Below, piece by piece: positions 5,900 to 8,665 of a stretch of 64,000 nucleotides of DNA (the stretch's first letter is position 1; each line of letters starts with the position of its first letter). A program made the position numbers and the translations under genes. This DNA is from Methanocella arvoryzae MRE50 (lineage in GTDB: Archaea > Halobacteriota > Methanocellia > Methanocellales > Methanocellaceae), in contig NC_009464.1 of assembly GCF_000063445.1 (NCBI RefSeq), positions 1,984,001-2,048,000 on the forward strand, written 5' to 3'. A model generated the notes under the pieces. It ran no database searches. It had not been told where the DNA came from and was given only the letters and a program-made list of their open reading frames with translations.

Positions 5900-5971
5900 G
5901 GGCACGTAGATCAGGGGTAGATCGCTTCCTTGGCATGGAAGAGGCCTCGGGTTCAATTCCCGACGTGTCCA
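5900..5971 (+). tRNA. tRNA-Ala (GGC)
   Basis: The cloverleaf is complete over 72 bases. The acceptor arms GGGCACG and CGTGTCC pair, with one G-T pair, and the discriminator is A at 5971. The anticodon stem CTTCC/GGAAG encloses the loop TTGGCAT, so the anticodon is GGC for alanine codon GCC. The T arm contains GGTTCAATTCC. CCA is not encoded, and there is no intron. No copy of its 3' half was seen elsewhere in the window, so there is no sign of an element integrated here. Confidence 0.95.
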
Positions 5972-6087
5972 CTAAGTTTTTCGAAAGGCTGTCGGAAAAC
6001 CTTTTTCCAAAAAAGGTTTTCCTGACTCTCGACACCCGAATAAGCCCGAAGGGCATTTTTAAAGCGATGTTTTTGAGGGGGTGGCGA

Positions 6088-6113: not shown

Positions 6114-6166
6114 TAACACCTATCATTAAAAGGGCTATTACTACAGTTCAATAAACTCTTTCGCGA

Positions 6167-6407
6167 GTCGACGTCCGACCCTTCGGGTCGTCCTACTCCG
6201 GCTTTTCGGGTGCTCCGATGTCCGGGCCGGACTCGCACCCTCGCAACGGAAACCCGGCTGGCGCTTCGCAGCCGCCGGTTTACGTTGCTTCGCAAGTCCT
6301 AAGCGACGCCACTTCGTAGGCGACGACTGCCATGGGCAGTCGTCCATTACCCGGCCATCTCCGCATCCTGCCTGATGGCAGGACAAGCCCGAAAAGCCTC
6401 CGTCGAC
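6167..6407 (-). ncRNA. candidate structured RNA of about 240 nt, class unknown
   Basis: This G+C-rich stretch has no credible reading frame but folds strongly. GTCGAC at each end (6167-6172 and 6402-6407) can close it. GGCTTTTCGGG (6200-6210) pairs with CCCGAAAAGCC (6388-6398). Local hairpins include GACGACTGCC/GGCAGTCGTC, TCCTGCC/GGCAGGA, GACCC/GGGTC and GCAACG/CGTTGC. The minus strand is preferred because several loops then read C(GAA)G. It begins about 20 bases after the stop of the minus-strand gene at 6429, so it may be a processed 3' part of that transcript. I tested it by eye against RNase P, SRP and tRNA signatures and found none. Confidence 0.4.
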
Positions 6408-6428
6408 CGCTTACCCATACGTTTTACC

Positions 6429-8522
6429 CTAGGCTCCGCTTAGCGGATCGGTTACTTGATCTATAATCCCCGGTTTCTCACAGCAGGCCTTTACTATCGG
6501 CAAGAATCGATCGCTGATCCTGTATGTCGGCTTCTGTCCTGTCTCTGTCGTCCTTGCGACGACACTTTTCTCATATAGCACACGCAAGTATTTGCTCACC
6601 GCACTCTCGGGCAGGCCCAGCTTCGCCGCGAGCTCCATGTTTGTGATGCCCGGGCTGTTCAGAAGGACAAGTATCATCCGACCGTATGATTCCCTGCGCA
6701 GCAGGGCTATGATTAGCTTTTCCTCTGGCGAGTAGCTGTTGGAATTGGTGAAATACCTGACGTATTTAGTGTCGTCGGTGTACTCCGTGATCTTGTGGTT
6801 CATCGACAGGATCAGCAAGTGATACCTCACGGTACCGACGTTCATCGGCAGTTCCCTGGATAGCTCGTGCAGGGTGGACCCCGGCCGATCTGCAATAAGC
6901 TTGTATAACCTGTTCCTGTTATCGTTTCTGTCGATCCTGGAGCGAGCGCGGGTAATAGTGCCCGCGGATAGAACGTGCAGGCAAAGGTAGCCGGCCGCCG
7001 CAGCCAAACCAGCTGCTATGCCGAAGCCGATGGCAGACAGCTTGCCATCGGCAGTCCTGTAGTAGAGTGTGCCATTTCGCTCGACCATGTCTATTACAAG
7101 CGAGCCTGTCGGCCGGCTCCACAGCAGGTGACCATCTGCCATATCCAGCGCATATATTCCTCCTGTATACGTGCAGTTGGATCGGCCGGCGAAGAAGGGG
7201 TACTCGTAGTTTGAGACCCAGTAGCTAACGTATACAGTGTTATTGCCCGGTACCACCCAGGCGATGGCATGGCTTTTGATAATCTGCGAACCAGGCTTCA
7301 TGCCTCGTTCCTGATACCACTCATCGGCAGGAGTTTCGTTGGCCTCAACGCTGAAAGCGGGTTCGTAGGAGTTCGTGATTATGTTGAACTCATGTGCATC
7401 TGGCCTGATTGCGTAGACCTTTCCTGCGGGAATGGTGTATTGCCAGATCTGTTCGCCTGTCTCCGAATAGTGGGCGCTGACCTTGACAGGCTGGAAATCA
7501 TACAGGTTAGCCACCTGTCTATCCCCTACGTCGTTAACATCTGTACTGTATGCTACGCCGTTTTTTATGTTGGCGGTATTGATTCTCATGGTATTGTTTT
7601 CAAGTATCGTTTCTCCGCCATCAACTGTAATAATGTGGATAGGTGAGTTGACGTCCCCTCCAGACACGAAAAACCGGCCTTGAGCATCCGGTAAGTAGCC
7701 GTATATAGGGCTCATCCATCCTTCCGGGCTGGTCTTCACCCACTTCAGCGAGCCGTCTTTAGTGATGGCCACAAGGCTGTCATGCGTCCACAAGTACACC
7801 GTCCCGTTATCGTAGGAGATCGCTCTCCACGCCCTGAAAGGTACTCCGTAGTCGGCGAGGCTGCGCTGCCAGGCTGTCGTTCCGTTTGGCGAGCGGGCGA
7901 TAACTCCGGTCATGTCAAGCGAACCGGAGAGCTGGTACATATTTCCTCCTTCATCGAAGGCAGGTTTGAAGAGGATGCCAGCCTGCCGCCATAGCTCTCT
8001 ACCATTCTTACCGAACGCAATCACAGAATAGCCGTTTACGTAAGCGTAAATTCGCTCGTTGCAGAGGGTCAGCTTTACGGTCTGGGAGTTATTCAGCTGT
8101 CTGGACCAGAGTATGGTTCCACTGCGTGAGACTGCTACGATTTCACTCTCTCCCCGGCTCCAATTATTGCGGACGCTACCTTTTGACGGATAAACTGACA
8201 TGTAGATCGTATTATTATCCGATACAGCGGTTTCCATATTCCAGTTGTCGTACTTGCCGGCTGCCTCGTCATATACTGGCAGAACCACATTCCAGCGGGC
8301 GCCTTGAGGGCCCATGGCGTGAAGTGTTTTGCCACTGATGAAATAGAACGTATCGTCATCTTCGACATATGGTTTTGAATTAATGCCAGTATCGTTGATT
8401 TTGACGGACCACATTTCCACAGGTCCTTCACTATTGTTATCCAGCATAATGGCGGCAAGCGTCGCCGCCATGAAGACGAGGGCTGCTATCAGGATCGCCG
8501 TGAATATGCTGCTCCGTTTCAT
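6429..8522 (-). CDS. membrane-anchored PQQ-like beta-propeller with cytoplasmic double winged helix
   Basis: This protein of about 697 residues appears to combine a sensor and a regulator. A single N-terminal membrane segment (residues 5-28) is followed by a large outer domain with propeller-type repeats such as 'GTILWSR', 'GRELWRQ', 'GSLKWVK' and 'GHLLWSR'. A second membrane segment (about 497-515) leads to two winged-helix domains. The first carries 'RPGSTLHELSREL...GTVRYHLLIL' and the second 'SPGITNMELAAKLGLPESAVSKYLRVL'. A one-component transmembrane transcription regulator reading an outside signal is the likely role (inference). The ATG at 8522 is used rather than the TTG at 8525. Its last domains resemble those of the genes at 35875 and 36804. 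Confidence 0.8.
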   Translation of the reverse strand: MKRSSIFTAILIAALVFMAATLAAIMLDNNSEGPVEMWSVKINDTGINSKPYVEDDDTFYFISGKTLHAMGPQGARWNVVLPVYDEAAGKYDNWNMETAVSDNNTIYMSVYPSKGSVRNNWSRGESEIVAVSRSGTILWSRQLNNSQTVKLTLCNERIYAYVNGYSVIAFGKNGRELWRQAGILFKPAFDEGGNMYQLSGSLDMTGVIARSPNGTTAWQRSLADYGVPFRAWRAISYDNGTVYLWTHDSLVAITKDGSLKWVKTSPEGWMSPIYGYLPDAQGRFFVSGGDVNSPIHIITVDGGETILENNTMRINTANIKNGVAYSTDVNDVGDRQVANLYDFQPVKVSAHYSETGEQIWQYTIPAGKVYAIRPDAHEFNIITNSYEPAFSVEANETPADEWYQERGMKPGSQIIKSHAIAWVVPGNNTVYVSYWVSNYEYPFFAGRSNCTYTGGIYALDMADGHLLWSRPTGSLVIDMVERNGTLYYRTADGKLSAIGFGIAAGLAAAAGYLCLHVLSAGTITRARSRIDRNDNRNRLYKLIADRPGSTLHELSRELPMNVGTVRYHLLILSMNHKITEYTDDTKYVRYFTNSNSYSPEEKLIIALLRRESYGRMILVLLNSPGITNMELAAKLGLPESAVSKYLRVLYEKSVVARTTETGQKPTYRISDRFLPIVKACCEKPGIIDQVTDPLSGA

Positions 8523-8665
8523 CAAACCACTGATCGAATAAACAGTGACAGCTTAAATATAGGTTCTCTCAGTATCGGATAATTGGCTGCTTATGATAGA
8601 AGTTCACCATTCTCGACCATGGCTTGCGCTTGGGTACCGGTACCAGTGCCCGGTCATCTGTTGTA

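Follow-up and report, generated by a model that had tools for sequence, protein, structure and literature searches.

REP elements, as described in the available portions of two accounts, are single hairpins of 20–40 bp with a GTAG at the hairpin foot and an associated Y1 (RAYT) transposase; REPs, REPINs and BIMEs occupy intergenic DNA, mostly between convergent or unidirectional genes, and include head-to-head heterodimers (PMC3733652, PMC6006769). Here we describe a repeat of about 230 nt in Methanocellaceae. It is probably a non-autonomous mobile element in which the minus strand of the window—the 64,000-nt stretch of Methanocella arvoryzae MRE50 contig NC_009464.1 that was analysed, positions 1,984,001 to 2,048,000—is selected for a 12-helix, three-junction fold. 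The best reading is a large REPIN/MITE-like element that would act as folded RNA or single-stranded DNA.

The window copy is 248 nt long, and the features of its predicted fold are collected in Table 1. The original prediction had placed it at 6167–6407 (about 240 nt), which is nearly right, the natural ends lying slightly further out at 6163 and 6410. The GTCGAC/GTCGAC closing helix it proposed is present at 6167–6172 and 6402–6407, and the 11-bp helix between far ends is also found, with GGCTTTTCGGG (6200–6210) and CCCGAAAAGCC (6388–6398) pairing perfectly. The element starts 18 nt past the stop codon of the regulator gene at 6429–8525, on the same strand as had been noted, and there is no sign of a functional link between this gene for a 698-aa PQQ/beta-propeller and winged-HTH protein and the element. 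Stability exceeds that of shuffled controls: the minus strand of 6160–6415 folds at −142.1 kcal/mol against −105.5 ± 4.3 in 200 shuffles, none of which is as stable (z −8.45), and 6163–6410 folds at −140.7 kcal/mol (z −7.1 against shuffled sequence). The plus strand also scores z −8.2, as expected of any set of hairpins, and the strand assignment rests instead on the G-U and A-C counts given below.

Table 1. Features of the window copy and its neighbours (window coordinates).
Feature	Position	Strand	Remarks
Element	6163..6410	-	5' end 6410, 3' end 6163; match to covariance model R1; ends from the 33-copy alignment
P1 closing helix, 5' strand (GCGGTCGACG)	6401..6410	-	partner 6163-6173, one bulged base on the 3' side; 98.7% of cells paired
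P1 closing helix, 3' strand	6163..6173	-	CGTCGAnCCGC motif is the repeated unit of downstream tandem arrays in other copies
P2, 5' strand	6388..6398	-	partner 6200-6210; double compensatory changes in 4/9 pairs
P2, 3' strand	6200..6210	-	partner 6388-6398
P3 variable hairpin	6365..6384	-	loop C-ATCA-G in the window copy
P4 with internal loop, 5' strand	6349..6364	-	partner 6212-6227; 99.2% paired
P6 hairpin region	6308..6344	-	additional perfect palindrome 6322-6344 in the window copy
P7 long hairpin, variable tip	6229..6299	-	invariant CTTAG and GTGC on its flanks; 99.0% paired
P5 hairpin close to the 3' end	6176..6190	-	AGTAG (6193-6197) 5' of P5, invariant in 33/33 copies
tRNA-Ala (GGC)	5900..5971	+	3' end faces the element 3' end at 192 nt
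Gene upstream of the element, 698-aa PQQ/beta-propeller and winged-HTH protein	6429..8525	-	neighbour of the element only

A genome search with the window element recovered further copies in M. arvoryzae (G000; 3,179,916 bases) at 70–90% identity. An alignment of 33 copies from three genera gave a consensus fold and a covariance model (R1, 232 positions), which aligns to the window copy over positions 1–232 of 232 (208 bits, E 2.5e-52). With this model, full copies number 18 in M. arvoryzae and 15, 8 and one (diverged) in three relatives of the same family, G003, G001 and G002, respectively, along with a few partial copies; G000 and G001 are the complete genomes among the four. Units range from 207 to 286 nt, with about 230 nt typical. 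No autonomous version with an inner ORF was seen among the copies, and the one split copy (L039) is interrupted by low-complexity sequence. The model found no copy in the other 390 of the 394 genomes of a phylum sample, in which the four element-bearing genomes are the only members of their class. Phages and plasmids gave no copies or short chance matches. Searches of other genome and viral collections, which may omit close kin of the window genome and are thus uninformative on Methanocellaceae, returned nothing for a first conserved pattern, and for a second returned 14 genomic and two viral stretches, none of them confirmed by the covariance model (best E 0.57). At the Rfam gathering score the sole match is the tRNA at 5900–5971 and not the element, in keeping with the earlier view that it carries no RNase P, SRP or tRNA signature; at permissive thresholds neither the window copy nor five other loci matched any family. 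We found no relevant account of such repeats in Methanocella in the literature searched. Judged by these searches, the element family is previously uncatalogued and restricted to one lineage.

The predicted fold comprises P1, P2, a variable P3, P4 with an internal loop, a junction with P6 and P7, and P5, with AGTAG, GNAATG, CTTAG and GTGC as invariant junction sequences. Covariation among relatives, set beforehand as a test of the structure, is pronounced. Predicted pairs are formed in 96.7% of cells across the 33 copies, and double compensatory changes occur in 24 of 55 pairs. The covariation score is 0.319 against 0.134 in shuffled alignments, a value reached by none of 500 shuffles; the shuffle preserves column make-up and not relatedness, while a second control, which does preserve relatedness by sliding the partners by 1–3 columns, lowers pairing to 36–41%. 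A conserved secondary structure is strongly supported by this covariation. G-U cells outnumber A-C cells by 120 to 10 over the copies, which identifies the window-minus strand as the folded one, and this strand folds better in 40 of 40 copies, with a mean gain of 15 kcal/mol. Nearest copies of one genome differ by 52 double, 29 single structure-keeping and 44 broken changes. The differences are thus largely compensatory and preserve the structure better than decay of dead copies would, so that a function in their own right is possible for some copies.

The multi-junction fold with its invariant junctions and the compensatory changes among copies within one genome would also suit a host ncRNA gene family, its copies transcribed from their own promoter or that of the gene upstream, functional, and homogenised by gene conversion. 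Positions speak for it as well, since many copies lie 5–40 nt beyond a same-strand stop codon and some occupy the same tRNA in two genera. Several observations tell against it. Firstly, the 5' flanks share no conservation, which begins only where the element itself does, so that no promoter travels with it. Secondly, copy number varies from 1 to 18 among the species of one genus. Finally, the flanking genes are mutually unrelated, and sites in relatives are empty, as set out below. A family of host ncRNA genes is, on balance, an unlikely explanation.

The case for movement comes from comparing copies and sites. In a tree the copies from each genome form one group, although support for the M. 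arvoryzae group is only 77. Two copies (L052 and L056) are 98% identical and two others (L073 and L079) about 92%, yet their flanks are unrelated and the 5' edge is sharp, homology between near-identical copies beginning 1–8 nt from the 5' end. An inverted pair in M. arvoryzae (L033, 5550–6029) is absent between the same convergent genes in G001, which has a 4-bp gap there, and in G002, which has 164 bp; in the same convergent-gene comparison a single element copy is missing in G003. The window site between leuS and tRNA-Ala is present without the element in all three relatives. Gene conversion could give the grouping by genome, but it leaves these empty sites unexplained. The comparison of genomes shows a mobile unit, and it is from this comparison that movement is read. 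The original prediction of a new structured RNA thus stands as regards an uncatalogued conserved secondary structure, backed by covariation, and gives way as regards a single ncRNA gene, the unit being a multicopy dispersed element. Nor is the element tied to the membrane regulator gene, next to which it is a lineage-specific insertion. Head-to-head inverted pairs (three intact and one remnant) each join an A-type to a B-type copy. No target-site duplication was found, flank words shared by copies being no longer than in permuted pairs.

Several side observations were made. In G001 a tyrosine-integrase gene follows the orthologous tRNA-Ala in place of the element (L153, 1772757–1773275). Direct and inverted repeats of the CACAAAGG / CCTCTGTGG type occur in M. 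arvoryzae and G003 (L034 4635–4738, L040 2316–2557, L055 3785–4069 and L111), and at L111 (G003 C5, about 212900–213850) they fill the site of the M. arvoryzae element pair. Three G001 copies (L073 1716–2030, L082 1757–2000 and L047) have a further 5' extension in common, which in L073 and L082 contains a 24-nt tandem repeat (CCTAACCATCGTTATACTTGTAGG or similar) of its own. Within M. arvoryzae, 16 of 18 copies fall in the 1.0–2.0 Mb interval of the chromosome (3.18 Mb) in mixed orientations, a clustering noticed post hoc. A lagging-strand insertion bias is unsupported, because orientations in this genome are mixed within short stretches.

Placement relative to genes is uneven. For 36 copies, the neighbours are convergent in about 20, co-directional in 15 and divergent in one. 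No association with particular neighbour genes was found; radA, a tRNA synthetase gene, hsdM, dapB and thiD are among the neighbours. The preference for convergent sites and tRNA 3' flanks, together with a P2 strand that is U-rich in many copies, would also be expected of a cis-acting gene-end module, for example a bidirectional terminator, an insulator or an mRNA 3' stabiliser. The T run of P2 is not conserved, however, several G001 copies reading GGCGTTCCGGG at this place with the helix intact; a 230-nt fold with invariant junctions is unneeded for a terminator, and relatives do without the element at the same sites. We regard a module of this kind as improbable.

tRNA genes lie within 500 nt of 19 of 41 copies (6/8 in G001, 10/15 in G003 and 3/18 in M. 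arvoryzae), and in 17 of these 19 the 3' end of the element faces the 3' end of the tRNA. Random placement reached the observed proximity in none of 20,000 trials for G001 and in 72 of 20,000 for M. arvoryzae, figures that overstate the enrichment, since placements were uniform over the genome and not limited to intergenic DNA; we estimate that intergenic-only placement would weaken the G001 enrichment and not remove it. tRNA-Met (L046, L051) and tRNA-Asp (L048, L053) each have an adjoining copy in two genera, which is about the yield of repeated targeting among some 45 tRNAs and thus no proof of shared ancestry; these recurrences could reflect old, vertically kept loci. A second short repeat family, a TTTTTGAAAGGC..GGAAAACTTTTTTCAAAAAGTTTTCC-like hairpin, is found directly 3' of tRNA genes on the tRNA strand (window 5973–6036, L036, L047, L050, L051, L053, L058, L062 and several G002 contigs).

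The 3' side of the element shows a further peculiarity. Seven loci of G003 carry tandem repeats of the 3' terminal motif (CGTCGAnCCGCG) together with the A-rich stretch that follows it, with a period of 28–48 bp and up to 14.6 copies. The corresponding repeats in M. arvoryzae are single and degenerate, and in the G002 copy the 3' part is duplicated. Homology between copies may extend through the 3' tail (L041/L036, L053/L049), so that the unit can carry one or more repeats along with it. CRISPR-like arrays are ruled out, as units within a locus are mostly identical, A-rich part included.

Candidate mobilising enzymes were sought in all four genomes. A reverse transcriptase (RVT_1, PF00078) is absent from each, with a positive control in Methanosarcina acetivorans. 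A Y1 transposase (PF01797) is absent from M. arvoryzae and G001 and present once each in G002 and G003, while TnpB (PF07282) is absent from M. arvoryzae, G001 and G002; controls for the IscB search gave no signal. These gene searches rule out, as the mover, any reverse transcriptase that Pfam would detect and, for the two complete genomes, also Y1 transposases and TnpB. Every genome encodes one or more tyrosine recombinases similar in size to XerA, and in G003 such a gene is the sole integrase-type one found; a role for it in element movement is speculation. The same results bear on whether the element is what remains of a known mobile system with an RNA component, namely an IscB/TnpB guide RNA, a retron msr-msd or a group I/II intron. 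A multicopy structured unit of similar length whose 3' end adjoins variable sequence fits such an origin, but the missing Rfam matches, the lack of RVT_1 in all four genomes and the lack of TnpB in three largely refute it, leaving it very improbable.

Loop sequences offer a hint as to the form in which the element moves. Stable RNAs usually have GNRA and UNCG loops, and C(GNA)G loops are exceptionally stable in DNA. Of the hairpin loops predicted (179 in all), 59 have the C(GNA)G triloop form, two are GNRA and none is UNCG. One paper that discusses extraordinarily stable DNA mini-hairpins contains the GCGAAGC sequence (PMC10527192). The loop types hint weakly at a single-stranded DNA form, weakly because the loops were predicted with energies for RNA and because terminator-like hairpins nearby have similar ones. 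Under the preferred reading of a mobile element, the unit would spread as a folded single strand, either an RNA transcript or single-stranded DNA, recognised by a trans-acting enzyme. Insertion downstream of genes would be tolerated because it does little harm there, and tRNA 3' flanks would be preferred targets with fixed orientation. The 3' terminal motif would be part of the recognised end, multiplied locally into tandem arrays. A bolder form of this proposal, which we advance tentatively and hold to be doubtful, would make the family a new class of mobile element in archaea. Its mobile form would be either a SINE-like RNA with a large fold or single-stranded DNA, and the enzyme inserting it at the 3' flanks of tRNA genes, always in one orientation, would belong neither to the known reverse transcriptases nor to the Y1 transposases.

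With a model backed by covariation, over 40 copies and a number of empty sites, the element offers direct handles, and the family is a warning that a strong structured-RNA signal in archaeal intergenic DNA can come from a mobile repeat instead of a gene. Its resemblance to known systems is partial in each case. Like MITEs, it is short, non-autonomous and dispersed in intergenic DNA, with complementary ends (P1); unlike them, it has no target-site duplication, no related transposon end or gene was found, and its inner sequence is conserved as a strand-specific fold. It shares with the omega/HEARO RNAs associated with IS200/605 and IscB a structured unit of about 200 nt in a mobile context, and differs in lacking an Rfam match and, in M. 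arvoryzae, a TnpB or Y1 gene. Retrons and group II introns are set apart by the absence of both a reverse transcriptase in the four genomes and an Rfam match. Eukaryotic SINE-like and tRNA-gene-targeted retroelements combine a structured non-coding unit, an A-rich 3' flank and a fixed orientation to the tRNA gene. The element shows this combination, but its genomes have no reverse transcriptase, target-site duplication or series of 5'-truncated copies. The closest kind is REP/REPIN. Both are intergenic, multicopy, non-coding and mobile, lie mainly between convergent or unidirectional genes and form head-to-head heterodimers, and the invariant AGTAG followed by hairpin P5 recalls the GTAG class of REPs. 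Neither a preference for tRNA flanks nor 3' tandem arrays are mentioned for REPs in the available portions of the accounts cited at the outset (PMC3733652, PMC6006769). With its multi-branched, covarying fold, the element is also far longer than a REP, and neither M. arvoryzae nor G001 has a Y1/RAYT gene; because it departs from two defining REP features, unit length and, in the two complete genomes, a Y1 gene, we do not class it among the REPs. If the preferred reading is correct, it would represent an archaeal REPIN/SINE-like element, strongly oriented at tRNA genes without a recognisable mobilising enzyme, and well beyond the known palindromic repeats of prokaryotes in both size and degree of structure.
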